NCBI RefSeq assembly: GCF_963675165.1
Contig: NC_087389.1
Coordinates: 3,010,001 to 3,074,000, forward strand
From: Halichondria panicea
Taxonomy: Eukaryota; Porifera; Demospongiae; Suberitida; Halichondriidae
Reading direction: 5' to 3'
DNA: 64,000 bases
The translations under genes were made by a program, and so were the position numbers. The notes under the pieces are model-generated. The model saw only the letters and a list, made by a program, of their open reading frames with translations. It ran no database searches and was not told the DNA's origin. How positions within the stretch are numbered: position 1 is the first letter of the stretch; the number at the start of each line of letters is the position of its first letter. Positions 16,918-29,291 of this stretch are shown here, one piece after another.

Positions 16918-17711
16918 TGATTTAGATCCCAAAACCTATTGGCTACTAGAAATGCACTAGCTTAGCAACAGTCAACCTATATAAACAGCCAACCTAGCAA
17001 CTGCATCATTAGTCTCAGTTTTGAAAACTAATATCTAAAGTTGGCATCTCTGTGTCTCTACTAAATCTGTGGTCTCTATTCAAGTCAACCCTGTTCCTCC
17101 ACCTCAGTTTGATTGACAAAATTATAGTCCTAGCTCCACCCACAAAACGGAAACATCCAGCTCCTCTCCCAGTTTTGCAGCAAACAAGCCCCAGCACACT
17201 TCCCAAGAAACGAGCGGCTCGTACTACTCTCACAAAGCGAAAGGAAGACACCTAAGCTATAATTTACAGCAAACAAGCCCAGCAAACGAGCGGCTCCTAT
17301 ACTACTCTTGAACAAAGCGAAAGGAACTTAGGAAGAAGCCAAAGCTAGAATCCCAGCACTTCCATACATCCAGCTCCTCCCCCATGCAGCCTTGCAGCAA
17401 AAAAGCACAGCACACTGCCCAAAATTACTAGATAATTTAAAGCATCTAGCTACAATAATTTTTATGTTATTACATGTGTATCTTCTTGTGTAGTTTGTAG
17501 CCCAGAGCAATCTATAGTACCGGTACTATAGCTCATAGTTCCCTGCTAAATACACTCAAATGGGATCTAAATAATAGTTAGACACTGTTTTGGAGGTGTC
17601 TATGGGATTTAGAAGCCCAAAGGCACTGATTTAGTATCCCGAGCATAGCGAGGGTACTAAAGTGGCTGAGGGCTTCTAAATCACATGGACACCGACAAAA
17701 GCAGTGTCTAA

Positions 17712-19379
17712 TGCACCTATCAATGGCAAGCCCCACCTCCCCCAGTACGGGCACTAGGTGGGGCTTATGTGGGGATTTGATTATACATTTTGCCCCAGAT
17801 GCAGGGAATTTGATAATACTGTTCTGCGCATGCGCAGTAAAAAATTAGCCATGTGCTAATTGCAACTCTATTCATAAAATATTATAAAATGTGCTAGAGA
17901 AGGCTAAATATAGAAGCTCTGAAGATTTAGCTGCAAGAAGAAGTGTGTGAAGAAATCTATCAGCTAATATAAAACAAGTGAGTGTCTGTCTGGTGCATGG
18001 TGCTCTGTAGCAAGCCTGTATTAAACTTATTGTCTGGCTTTAATAATTTTTTTTTTTTATATTCAAAGCCGAAGGTGATGTCACAATATGAGAAAAAGGT
18101 CCTAGTGACCTTTGGAGACAATCGGCGTCCAGTTTCTTTCCAAGGAGGGGTGACTAACCTAACGTTAAAGATCAAGGAACGTTTTTCAGACTGTGGGATA
18201 GAGAAAGACGATACCATTGTTCTTCAAATAAAGTCCAAAGAGTGGGGAGGAATATTTGTTGATATGGAACCGGATGAAGTCATTCCTGATAAATGTGTCA
18301 TCAATGCTGTGTCCTCGAAGGTATTTATACCGAAAATGTGCATGCTATTAAATCTGTACACACAGGTCATAATTATAGTCTAGTAATGAAATAAACACCA
18401 TTTTCACTTTACAAACGAGACTGTGCCCACTCCATCTACTACACAAGCAACATGCAGTGTCACAACCACAACCACACCGAATGTTGGACTGACCCAATTG
18501 AGATTGTCGTTCTCTGGAAACCTGAGGAAACCAACTGAAAACGTACATGATGAAATTATGTGCTATTAATACAAGTTATGTATCATTTGACTTTGTGCTA
18601 GCTGTTCTACATTTTATATTTTTGCCACCCAGTATGCCAAAAGTCTGTCGGTGCATCAGCAGACAAATTGCAGTGGTATCTGTGAGGACCCCCTCTAAAT
18701 TCACTCCCAATGCCTCACATAGATCCAGAAAGACCATGGGGAAAAGAAAATTGTAAAGACTGTAAGGGGATCTGCAATGGTCACTATGTGGAAAGCTCGG
18801 ATGGAAGTTACGCTCCACCCCCATCTGCAACATTGCAGAAAGCTTTTAACAGTACGTCTACCTTAGAGCCTGAACAATTGGCTGAGGCTGTTTGTCTTCC
18901 GGAGGCAGAAGTTGAAATTTGGCTCAAACATTTACAAACAGTAAAAGATAACCGAAAACTTGGTGCAGAAAAAAGAAGATGTCCTGTATAGCTGTGAGAT
19001 ATGTAGAAATGTTTATGAAGAACAGACGGAAGAAGTTGAAAACTGGATTGCATGTGATGTGTGTGACAGTTGGTTTCACTGGAAATGTGTGAATCTTTTG
19101 TCTGAACCTGATAAGTATGTGTGTAGCACTTGTACCATGTAATAAAGTGGATTGAATCTTTTGTTTGCCTGTATAAAGAGATAATAATTATAGCCAACCC
19201 GTATTAATTATGATTTATAGCTCATTGTAGGTGTCAATTCCCCAGGTAGAACTACGGGTTTTACCTAGGGATTTGACATCGAAGTTGCCCCCAGATATGG
19301 TGCAATTGAAATATGTATGTTTCAAATCCCCACCTATGCCCGTACTGGGGGGGGGTGGGGCTTGCCATTGATAGGTGCA
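17712..19379 (+). mobile_element. TIR element carrying a homeodomain-like/PHD gene, TAA target duplication
   Basis: The ends are near-identical inverted repeats of about 58 bp: both read TGCACCTATCAATGGCAAGC, then CCCACC, CCCCCAGTACGGGCA and GGTGGGG when taken from outside in. TAA flanks both sides (17709-17711 and 19380-19382). The related host element at 27139-28015 has CAGTGTCTAATCATTTAG at this position, an empty site with a single TAA. A 3 bp TWA duplication is the habit of PIF/Harbinger transposons, but no DDE transposase is encoded, so that assignment is only a suggestion. The only gene inside is the spliced PHD gene at 18078-19142, which ends 237 bp from the right tip. Confidence 0.82.
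18078..19142 (+). CDS. Homeodomain-like and PHD-finger protein inside a TIR element (one apparent frameshift)
   Basis: I do not recognise a named orthologue. Likely exons are 18078-18320, 18420-18542, 18633-18681 and 18723-19142; the third intron is only 41 nt. The first exon gives a compact N-terminal domain (YEKKVLVTFGDNRRPVSF, then WGGIFVDMEPDEVIPDKCV). After a Thr-rich linker come a Cys cluster (CKDCKGIC) and a helical stretch ending EVEIWLKHLQTVKDNRK, which has the spacing of homeodomain helices 2-3 (WL in place of WF). Then follows a canonical Cys4-His-Cys3 PHD finger (CEIC, CDVC, WFHWKC, CSTC). The helical part and the PHD finger are in different frames; dropping one A from the six-A run at 18969-18974 joins them. 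AATAAA overlaps the stop codon. A 5' UTR intron may end at 18066. The gene could be a decayed copy, a sequencing indel or a frameshifting gene. Confidence 0.68.
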
Positions 19380-19528
19380 TAACTCATTTAGATACTAGTG
19401 CGCATGCGCAAACCGCTTGACTACAATACAATTACTTGACAACGGAATACTAGGTATACTAAGTAAATTTGTAGGTATACTAAGTCCCATAGTATACCTG
19501 CTCTGAGGCACTTTTCCCATGTACTTCC

Positions 19529-25089: not shown

Positions 25090-28000
25090 TTACCTAGACA
25101 GAGAAGGAGGTGTCAGTCCTGGGAGACCTAGTGCTTGCAGTGACCCTATCCTAATTGAAGTATTTGGAGATTCACTCGTGACATTCAAAGAAGGAAACAT
25201 GTCATGATGAGGTGTACCAAAAGGGGGCAGAATGTTTGAAATCGGACTAAAAAGTTTCAATGGTGTACTACACTTCATGCTTGGAGAATCAAGGGATGTA
25301 GATGGTCGGAAAGGCGTGAAGATTCCACTATCCATATTAGGGTCGTTTAGAGGAGTGAGAGGTGACGGCACAATATTTGAGCCTGGTCGTCGTTTTGGAG
25401 TACCACAATGTGGAGACACAAAATTAGCATAAAGAGGTGATAAAGATATCCCTCCAGGTCCAATTTCTATGTCATTGACTATATCTTTGAGTGGCGTAAG
25501 TAGTGATGAATCGAGGAAGCTGAGACTAATATCGTGCTCTCTTGAGGGGGTAGTCATTGCAAACATAGAGCATTGGTGACCAGTAGAAGATCTACAACAA
25601 TTTTCTTTGTTTGTAGTATGCCATGATTTAGAAGATCGACAACATTTATTGACCAAGATTTCTCTTCTTTTTTTCCGCTTGGGTGTGAAGATTGCTTCAA
25701 TGGTGGCCTCAGAATTGATAGAGTCATCATCGTCAGTATTTGGACTTTGCCTGTGTATGTACACTTTAGGCAGCTGCTTAGCATAGCTATGGTCGATTAA
25801 ATGTAAAGGTATACAGGTGACCTTATGTTCGGCTATTTCAGAAGATTTCTGCAATATTATAGATTCATCTTCAGATGATTGCAAAAGCAGCACTTCTTCT
25901 TGATGTGGAATATAGCCAACAGTATTACTAACAGAAAAGTATGGTCGGTTAGTAGCAACTCTATCTGATCTAGGCAAAACAGGGATAAATTGCCCTCGAC
26001 TCTTAACTGTGTGAGTGGTTGGCGTTCGATTGTAAACTGACTCAGGATCAATAACTGGAGGTTGAAAAGTGGAAAAAAGGGGGATGGCTCGCTTCAGTTC
26101 ATCTTCCCCATCTGCCAAGAGAGTCCAGTATGACCCATTTCCTCTTCGAGGTGGATACTGGTACACTTTCATGAACATTCCCTTTCGAATAGAGAGATTG
26201 TGGCGAATTGAATTCTGCAAAGCAACAATAAAAAGGTGCAATCAAAGTTAATTAGCAATGTGTGGGCTGAGTACTACCTCCCTAACCCTAACCCAGGCGG
26301 ATTTTTCTTTAGAAAGATATGGCCAGGTATCTTCATGTGCGCATTTGCTTTTATTCTCCGAATCTGAGGAATCTCGCTCTTCTACATATCTATAGCTGGT
26401 TGAGAAGGCTTGCACACTATTCTGAGGCCAGAAGAGGCTCTCCTCTACATCTGGATATCTGAGTTTGGTTCCGTATAGGCTATGGCAAGTTTTTGTGCTT
26501 CCTACTGCTGCTTGAGAAGCCTAAACAAAATTTAATACAAACACTATTTTGTACAGACATGACATAACTCCTCTATTATATACCGTATAATATGCTTGAT
26601 CAGGAGCCGCGGCTACTAAATGTTTCATTTTGCTGGAAGAGGAGGCTACAATTCAAGAGGGGCCACTGTTCAAGAGCGGCGTTTATTAGCTCCAGATAAT
26701 TTAGTTTGTCATCAAAAGTTATTTTCACCTGCATAAACTTGAACTCTGCCATGAGAAAGTCTTTGTGAAGCACTAACAAGCTGCTACTCATAGCTACGTA
26801 CATGTAGCTAGCTGCTAGTAATAATTTTTTTGGCTGCCACGTGCAGAAATGCTAGAGTCAAAGTTCACTGAGGCTACTATTTGAGAGCGGCTACTAAATG
26901 TTTCATTTTGCTAGCAAGGGAGGCTACTATTTGAGTGCGGCCTTTATACAAGAGCGGCCTCTGATCGAGCATATACGGTAGGCTATAATTATTATTCTAG
27001 GGCTAGGATTGTCCAATTAGCAGCAGAGAAACTATTAAATATTCGAGTTTTCCACGCGTCCCTCTCCATGATAGCTATAATTATGCAAAGCTCGCGGCAT
27101 CAGTAAAACTGAGTAATGCCACAAAGTACAGTTCTTTAGTTAGACACTAGTTGATAAGATCTACATGGGAAGAACATGGGAAAAGTGCCTCAGAGCAGGT
27201 ATACTATTAGCCTCCTTCACCGGCCTTCATAGAAAAGAAGGCCTGCTATCGACTGCTTGCGCATGCGCCAAATTATTGGATATTTTTTCCTGTAAAATTT
27301 CTAGAGAAAATATCCTAAAAGTCATACACAGAGCTATATAGCTAGCTAGCTAGAGACAGAGCTGTGTAGGTTTGTTGTACAGCTATTTTCTTCTGCAGTA
27401 GCAGTAGTATAGTAGACTGTCACCAACGTTAGTGTTAAACGGGCGTGGACGTCCATATAGGCTCTTGTCAGCTTTCACTCCGTTCAGACGATCGTCATCC
27501 ACACTGTTGCAGGCTGTGAGTCTTTTGTTAACATAGCAGGCTATCAGAGAATGCTATCCGATGGGCTAGAAACCTTCAATCGAACTTTCTACCTACTTCC
27601 TTCAATCCACTTCCGTTCGTTGTGATGTCATAGTTTACTGAGCATATACGATGTTATCCAAAGCCCCCAGATACCGAGGGGATATTAGCGCATGCGCAAG
27701 CAGTCGATACCAGGCCCACTTCCCTAAGTGAAGTGGAAAGTGCGGCATGGGATCGAGGCTAGTATACTATGGGACTTAGTATACCTGCAACTTACTTAGT
27801 ATACCTACAGTGTAGTATTCTGTTGTCAAGTAATTGTATTGTAGTTAAGCATTGAGCGCATGCGCACTAGTATCTAAATGATTAGACACTGTTTTGTCGG
27901 TGTCCATGTAATTTAGAAGCCCTCAGCCACTTGTAGTACCCTTGCTACGCTCGGGATACTAAATCAGTGCCTTTGGGCTTCTAAATCCCATAGACACCTC

Positions 28001-29291
28001 CAAAACAGTGTATAACTATTAATAATTATATCCTGTTTTCATGCGGTTGCTAGGATGGCCACGGGATAACTAGGATAATTCCCTCTGATATTTCCCCAGA
28101 CATGTTTGCTACAAGATCATGTAGATAATTTTATCTACTTTTTGTATTTTTTAAACTTGTGCAGGCTGCCATATTAAAACCAATGTTTGGTTGCTTTTAC
28201 AAAGTCAAAGATAGTGAGGAGATGATAGAAAGCTAGTGCAGTCCAAGTGCTAGTGGGAGCCTGTGAGCCTTGCAAGGCTCCACTCGTACTGTACTATACT
28301 CTGCCTTGGCACTGCACTATTGCACTGCACACTGTCTGGCTCCAGCTCTGTGGGTATGGGTGGCTGTAGCAGCTTGTGAGGTTTTAGTCATGGAGGAGGA
28401 GTCAGGGCGGGGCTCAGAGTGTTTCCTAGATCAGCATTTCTTGACAGCGTGGCAATAAAGAATTCCGTGTCGAACGGTAAGCAATAGTATCTGTAGCTAG
28501 CTAGCTATTGACAGAGCAAGCTTCTCCTCAATGCTTTTTTTGTTTTCTGATAGTTGAACGTGAGTTACCATGGTAGAGGAGTAAATGCGCAATTATAGCT
28601 AGCCGATATATAACACTCATACTATGGTTGCTAGGGATTTATGGCACCGTAAACCACACCTCGCCCTCGGGCTTGGTGGGTTTACTGCCATAAATCCCTA
28701 GAACCATAGTATAACTATATTTAGTGCCTCCGACTCGTTCAAAACTGTAGAGCACACAATGGCCATCTGACCATTTAAACTGATAGAATGAGCACTGTCA
28801 CATGTTTTGAAAACACAGACTTACCTTCCAGGCTTTAGCTGCCGGAGTACGATAGAAAGGAAAAGTATTTTCGATCCACTTATAAATACCGCTCAATGTC
28901 AGCATTCGTTGTGGAGTACTGCATATAGCCAGTGCTATGAGAGAAGCATACGACAAAGGGGGTTTATTGCTGGTTCCTTTCTTTACACTGCAGTAATCCA
29001 GCTTCTTGCGACAGCTTTCCTTTGTTTCTACTGTTTCATCTGCAAAGATAGTAGCTCTACGTTTGCGAGACTGTATACACCGCATTCCTGGTATCTCATC
29101 CCCTAGACAAAGAGAAAAATAGTACAAAGCATGTAAAATTTCTTGAACTTACCGGCATCCATTTTTTGAAGCCACTGCATGTCAGTCAGACTATCATCCA
29201 TTGCTTCACAACCAAAGTCAAGACCAGAGTCATTTTCAGACAACGGTTGAGATACAACAGAAATATGAGGGGCAGTGGTTCCTTGGTCCAT
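25090..29291 (-). CDS. Forkhead transcription factor, FOXM-like
   Basis: Three exons on the minus strand, 29291-29153, 29102-28825 and 26214-25090, give 513 residues with phases 1 and 0. The forkhead domain spans about residues 93-178: [55 protein letters not shown]. An intron splits it between AWK and NSIRHNLS. The usual KPPYSY is KPPLSY. The 300-residue C-terminal part is full of SP/TP sites ([32 protein letters not shown]), as expected for a CDK-regulated factor. [10 protein letters not shown] after the domain resembles the corresponding part of FOXM1, but the domain alone does not rule out FOXJ2/3 or FOXN. The 2.6 kb second intron holds repeats at 26583-26978 and 27139-28015. It shares a 644 bp upstream region with CTSD. 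Confidence 0.86.
26583..26978. mobile_element. CCGTATAATATGCTTGATC MITE, TA-flanked
   Basis: The left end CCGTATAATATGCTTGATCAGGAGCCGC and right end CTCTGATCGAGCATATACGG are inverted repeats with TA outside. Internal units CGGCTACTAAATGTTTCATTTTGCT are repeated. A second copy starts at 63,949 and is cut by the window edge. Confidence 0.82.
27139..28015. mobile_element. Inverted copy of the GTTAGACACTG host element, empty site for the PHD element
   Basis: Read on the minus strand this copy runs from the foldback (28015-27882) straight into AATCATTTAGATACTAGTGCGCATGCGC, without the 1.7 kb PHD element found in the plus-strand copy. It ends at ACTAGTGTCTAA (about 27,140). It is itself interrupted by the TAG...CTA element 27208-27771. 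Confidence 0.8.
27208..27771. mobile_element. TAGCCTC...GAGGCTA element with 9 bp duplication, nested
   Basis: Identical 9 bp flanks GTATACTAT lie at 27199-27207 and 27772-27780. The 564 bp body is homologous to 31491-32062: both hold GACTG.TTGCGCATGCGC near each end, a TAGCTAGCTAGC run next to AGAGCTGTG, and CACAGCCTGCAACAGTGTGGAT. Its ends match those of the RecQ-bearing element at 6450-7522. Confidence 0.92.
28616..28711. repeat. Foldback inverted repeat
   Basis: ATACTATGGTTGCTAGGGATTTATGGC pairs with GCCATAAATCCCTAGAACCATAGTAT around a short loop with CTCGCCCTCGGGC. It lies in the second intron of the forkhead gene. Confidence 0.75.

Follow-up and report, generated by a model that had tools for sequence, protein, structure and literature searches.

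How does a gene with a PHD finger come to lie between the inverted ends of a small transposon? The question is raised by a locus of the sponge Halichondria panicea, in the window analysed here (the whole stretch of 64,000 nucleotides of contig NC_087389.1). The preliminary description of this locus saw a terminal inverted repeat (TIR) transposon whose only gene is a spliced homeodomain-like/PHD gene, and suggested either a non-autonomous relative of PIF/Harbinger or a transposon that had captured a host regulator. Using a combination of flank and copy comparisons, genome searches, Pfam scans and shuffle tests, we arrive at a different reading: the element is probably an internally deleted, non-autonomous copy, and its gene the remnant of the long protein of its own family.

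The element, its ends and its insertion site

A 1,668-bp element has inserted at a TAA with a 3-bp duplication (Table 1). Its inverted ends, first described as 58 bp long, are present and align over 56 columns; the alignment has two gaps of one base each, and 52 of its 54 aligned bases agree. TAA stands on either side, together with the additional C that had been noticed beside the right copy. The joined flanks match an inverted copy at about 27700-28030 of the window over 240 of 252 aligned bases, with 11 gap positions, and this copy runs uninterrupted through the insertion point with one TAA. The empty site is paralogous, lying within another repeat, and not orthologous. From the TAA on both sides and this read-through paralogous copy, it follows that the insertion and its 3-bp duplication are real, as had been claimed.

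The element lies exactly at the end of a foldback repeat (TTAGACACTG...CAGTGTCTAA, window 17578-17711). By eye, the inverted ends bear a hairpin of their own, with the arms AAGCCCC/GGGGCTT here versus AAATCCCC/GGGGATTT in a C4 locus (L022), and the arms vary, on both sides, among subfamilies of the family ends.

Table 1. Positions of the features discussed (window coordinates, save for the last line, which refers to locus L061).
Feature	Position	Strand	Evidence
Element, 1,668 bp, TGCACC...GGTGCA	17712..19379	+	sequence, end alignment, genome search
Left inverted end, with internal hairpin (17728-17738 pairing with 17756-17766)	17712..17766	+	alignment; hairpin by eye
Right inverted end	19325..19379	-	aligned to left end
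Left target-site copy TAA, also the final 3 bases of the older foldback repeat	17709..17711	.	sequence, flank comparison
Right target-site copy TAA, followed by one additional C	19380..19382	.	flank comparison
Empty site in inverted repeat copy, single TTA/TAA at 27882-27884	27851..27905	-	flank comparison
5' coding block (MSQYEKKVLV...), 95% identical to C9	18078..18320	+	sequence comparison
Middle segment, once in the genome, other sequence in C9; read as remainder of an internal deletion	18321..18632	+	C9 comparison, genome search
Block of the C-terminal part, Cys-rich and homeodomain-like (C9 comparison over 109 codons), with a TGA in its frame at 18683-18685	18635..18961	+	
Homeodomain-like stretch, weak, below Pfam cut-off	18827..18922	+	Pfam
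PHD finger, frame differs from that of the homeodomain-like block	18993..19133	+	Pfam, frame comparison
AATAAA polyadenylation-like signal, overlapping the stop codon	19141..19146	+	sequence
Parent-like blocks at C5	L061 6519-8487		

A large family with common ends

The ends of the element belong to a large TIR family. Their first 26 bases occur, at up to three mismatches, at 101 places in the 131-Mb genome (44 forward and 57 reverse), the reversed control pattern at none genome-wide, and the TIRs are therefore not confined to this locus. A related end variant occurs at 120 places at up to two mismatches (reversed pattern, 0), the two sets overlapping. In the loci read, TTA/TAA precedes 34 of the 37 distinct ends (first 14 bases at up to two mismatches, duplicates removed by the first 60 bases plus flank), the exceptions being CGA at L047, which is not a family end by eye, CAA at L058 and TTT at L065.

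When the whole element was used as the query, in a genome search limited, like the others, to scoring the best candidates (here 40 of 41), its internal sequence was matched, among the matches listed, only on C13 (the window copy), at C9:4077505-4079602 and in two pieces on C10, the other of the 60 rows being ends only. In the short copies at C1:4083038-4083309, C16:1885513-1885794 and C17:3125880-3126153, similarity to the element is confined to its first 103-149 and its last 112 bases. The inverted ends, a duplication of fixed length, the empty site, multiple dispersed copies with common ends, and no intact transposase within (no long open frame, and broken frames) support the element as a non-autonomous TIR transposon with TWA duplications; this part of the preliminary description stands.

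Among the first 100 of the 120 places of the end variant, many are single family ends on one strand, at irregular spacing, in C7:5833013-7231729 and C1:133784-3089174. Three of these single-end places, when read, were old short copies or ends without parent blocks. Two C7 single-end places have common flanking sequence, one of them with an open frame that is piggyBac-like by eye (L070 3545-4845).

The gene inside the window copy is broken

The PHD finger is borne out by Pfam (PF00628, 33.4 bits versus a cut-off of 24), and the solved sequences closest to it, the BPTF PHD finger among them (E 6e-6), are PHD fingers too. The homeodomain is not confirmed as such and stays a weak lead (PF00046, E 0.027, 14.7 bits versus a cut-off of 22.9). 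The polyadenylation-like signal AATAAA is present as described. A spliced working gene is not supported: a TGA interrupts the frame, the domains lie in different frames, and the putative intron region (18316-18640), found at a single place genome-wide (E up to 0.1), is replaced in the C9 copy by non-homologous coding sequence. The linker between the homeodomain-like and PHD parts is 17 bp shorter than that of C9, thereby putting these two parts of the window copy in different frames. The gene is thus broken, and the window copy cannot supply the protein of its parent.

The 5' block, in its C9 sequence, is 44% identical to a domain in repeats at four places elsewhere, on C1 (two places), C8 and C16. 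This repeat is at least 6 kb long (L039 288-6289, L040), and two of its copies are 99.8% identical. Predicted structures were too poor for use (mean pLDDT 35 for the C9 protein and 59 for the 5' block).

Three coding copies point to a longer parent gene

Three coding copies were found, namely those of the window, C9 and C10. On the 5' side the identity between the window and C9 copies is 97.8%; in the two longer 3' pieces it reaches 98.9% and 95.5%. The middles between these flanks do not align (about 310 bp in the window and about 280 bp in C9). The C9 middle is coding and continuous with the downstream block; that of the window has no second place in the genome (E up to 0.1). The open frame of C9, 286 codons long, begins ahead of the 5' block, takes in the Cys-rich part and ends at a TAG in the homeodomain-like part; past this TAG the same frame continues across the linker as far as the first residues of the PHD, where another insertion interrupts it. 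Save for the TAG, a single frame of C9 covers the homeodomain-like block, linker and PHD start, so that the three once formed one protein.

Five of 184 codons (blocks of 75 and 109) differ between the window and C9, namely two stops, one per copy, one missense and two silent changes, and the comparison gives no sign of a maintained protein. Most simply, the two copies would be separate internal deletions of one longer parent gene; internal losses of this kind usually arise by abortive gap repair after excision. No relatives of the C9 or C5 proteins were found among the viral contigs searched.

A nested transposon in the PHD splits the C10 copy. The two pieces on C10 (C10:3569581 and C10:3631537; L041/L042), which lie 62 kb apart, have the same TTA flank at either end and are taken to be halves of a single copy. 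A RAG1-like partner, first suspected to be the transposase of the family because it adjoins the PHD at C10, belongs to a separate transposon with ends CACAGGTGTTTC, which landed in the C10 PHD with a 4-bp AAAT duplication. This RAG1-like transposon (L049 2199-6617, L050 4860-9252 and L041/L042) has ends CACAGGTGTTTC...GAAACACCTGTG and 4-bp duplications, and encodes a protein with the Pfam matches RAG1_imp_bd (E 2e-8) and DUF1280 (E 8e-15) and, by eye, a RING-like Cys-rich part. It fits Chapaev with Chapa and RING domains, as these are given in the excerpt of PMC4079192.

Parent-like sequences at C5 and C2

The C9 middle has a relative at C5:3941777-3941950 (43% identity over 58 residues), the common stretch scoring 91 and none of 100 shuffles more than 66. 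The reverse search from the C5 protein returned itself, C9 (E 1.7e-5) and one C7 place (E 1.15; L063), which gave no match at E 1 when read. At C5 (L061) the blocks GADAWRRTG and RVDGASDEGPSHDEV stand directly upstream of the C9-like region, on the same strand, and a family end (CATTGATAGGTGCA) lies about 195 bp beyond that region, flanked by TTG and not by TWA. No second family end occurs at up to two mismatches in the 8.6 kb upstream, and the closest related end among the matches listed is about 46 kb away.

The more decayed C2 locus (L062) has the C5 blocks in the same succession as at C5, all on one strand (1429, 1942, 2243, 2415, 2526 and 2798), and its last piece, CCFQSDCPHVRCQ, resembles the Cys motif of C9, CFKASCCHPVCQ. 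Three block comparisons exceed 100 of 100 shuffles. Four others are weak by themselves: as good a score was reached by 3 of 100 shuffles for the first block and likewise for the Cys motif, by 9 of 100 for the second block, whose best match is on the opposite strand, and by 12 of 100 for a piece in an alternative frame. No family end was seen at up to three mismatches in the 4 kb examined.

No PHD was found at either locus, nor a partner of the homeodomain-like block (86 and 92 of 100 shuffles as good at the two loci) or of the 5' block (76 and 87 of 100). It is therefore the region just upstream of the homeodomain-like block and the PHD that links these loci to the element. In Pfam the parent-like fragments have no match at E 1, and one fragment, compared with solved structures, found none better than E 0.77. 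The preliminary description had proposed looking for a longer copy with a DDE transposase and a common TIR; the assembly searches found no intact parent, which N runs and weak matches may hide, and six unpaired ends (L064-L069) gave no match to the homeodomain-PHD gene.

Two further candidates were set aside. A helicase/zf-AD partner between family ends 6.4 kb apart (L022, C4:5219455-5225835) is not the parent, because it lies in a nested element with inverted repeats of its own, followed by a second insertion. This nested element (L022 349-4965, C4:5219648-5224264) has 75-bp inverted repeats (97%), and DEAD/Helicase_C frames and zf-AD on opposite strands. A PHD-like match in 850-bp C6 copies (L023, L059) is due to chance, and no PHD follows it in L059.

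The origin of the PHD region

From the copies and from these two loci, it is strongly suggested that the Cys-rich/homeodomain-like/PHD unit would be the C-terminal part of a long parental protein, whose middle was lost separately in the window and C9 copies. The unit is read as the tail because the region just upstream of it is, at C5 and C2, the continuation of a longer conserved protein encoded by the same strand; for the tail as such, the final step, the reading relies on the frame of C9. By its place in the TIR family, the long protein would be the transposase of the family. The PHD is thus most likely the C-terminal tail of this transposase and not a captured regulator.

A two-gene transposon, in which the PHD protein would be a separate accessory gene, comparable to the Myb/SANT gene of PIF/Harbinger, and the transposase gene would have been lost, appears unlikely. 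It would agree with the 5' block and start of its own that the unit has in the window and C9, with the polyadenylation-like signal of the window copy, and with the TWA duplication, which the excerpt of PMC4482050 reports for PIF/Harbinger. It is opposed by the longer protein that continues just upstream of the tail, on the same strand, at C5 and C2. Furthermore, the closest of the 39 DDE_Tnp_4 matches in the genome is 12.6 kb from any of the 101 ends compared (100 listed of the 101 counted, plus the C5 end). The frames of the window and C9 copies had no Pfam match to a Myb/SANT second gene. The suggested kinship to PIF/Harbinger finds no backing beyond the TWA duplication, neither in these distances nor in the parent-like fragments.

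That a TIR element captured a host gene is highly improbable. The PHD and, weakly, the homeodomain-like part do resemble domains of host regulators, but no donor locus was seen in the genome searches, where close matches lie only inside TIR copies. Outside these copies the homeodomain-PHD query found only 27-41% identity, at E 2e-4 or worse, and the kinship to C5, beside a family end, is old (43%). The sole outside match over part of both domains (C1:5963241, 30% identity; L073) is weak and, like C3:1253779 (L074), has a PHD without a clear homeodomain-like or upstream match. L073 and L074 hold no family end at up to three mismatches, save for one unconvincing 14-base match in L074; other PHD matches (L031-L034) were compared by tblastn. 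The idea of a captured regulator, one of the two offered at the outset, is therefore not upheld, the more so as C5 and C2 continue a longer protein. In L073 (1624-3500; C1:5961600-5965100), the PHD frame lies downstream, on the same strand, of a Cys/His frame that is SWIM-like by eye, and the whole is possibly Mutator-like.

Finally, that the cargo is a domesticated PHD protein under selection, spread by the element, is barely conceivable: the flanking coding parts of the window and C9 do differ little, but two of their five codon differences are stops, one in each copy, the window copy has a frame break, C9 has an insertion in its PHD, and C10 is split by the nested transposon.

We propose that the long protein of the parent, acting as the transposase, would have bound the hairpin-bearing ends and mobilised them in trans, by cut and paste, into TWA sites. 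Its C-terminal PHD, going by its family membership, may have read the histone H3 tail, thereby perhaps steering integration. The middle of the parent gene would then have been lost by internal deletion, independently in the window and C9 copies, and the shorter copies of the family may represent the next stage of the same erosion.

The nature of the parent itself is more doubtful. Tentatively, it may belong to a DNA-transposon lineage without superfamily assignment, having a TWA-targeting transposase with no Pfam model, C-terminal Cys-rich, homeodomain-like and PHD parts, and hairpin ends. As a lead, there are presumably long predicted proteins of cnidarians and sponges in which upstream blocks are followed by Cys-rich, homeodomain-like and PHD parts. 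No title among the matches listed in the literature search described an element of this make-up.

If true, this lineage would add to RAG2 and Ginger1 another way in which a PHD entered an animal transposon system. A deletion derivative such as the present one can mimic a transposon that carries a regulatory gene. Should the parent be confirmed, its transposase, with a PHD reader of its own, would allow a test of whether cut-and-paste transposition is steered by histone marks, which is linked to the role of the PHD of RAG2 in V(D)J recombination.

Comparison with known systems

Regarding the TWA duplication, seen here at 34 of 37 distinct ends, the element resembles PIF/Harbinger (excerpt of PMC4482050). 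It differs in that no DDE_Tnp_4 occurs in the parent-like fragments, which are fragments only and no intact parent, or near the compared ends, and in that its weak DNA-binding-like part lies in one protein with the PHD. Chapaev3 also makes TWA duplications, but the Chapaev termini, CAC...GTG in the excerpt of PMC4079192, differ from the TGCACC start that is set here by the empty site. AcademX, according to the excerpt of PMC10045372, makes duplications of 3-4 bp, the 3 bp seen here falling in this range; no nuclease, a feature of Academ, was noticed in the Pfam scans run.

Ginger1 (Ginger1-9_HM) is, in the excerpt of PMC2836005, an animal DNA transposon whose transposase has a C-terminal PHD finger. 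It thus shares with the present system a C-terminal PHD in an animal transposon, whereas its CCGG/CCGT duplications and TGTNR ends contrast with the TWA duplications and TGCACC ends found here. Ds-like internally deleted elements and MITEs are alike in the fate of the copies, with the ends kept, the middle lost, remnants of the parent gene and short copies with the same ends; what sets the present element apart from them is that the remnant is a C-terminal PHD region.
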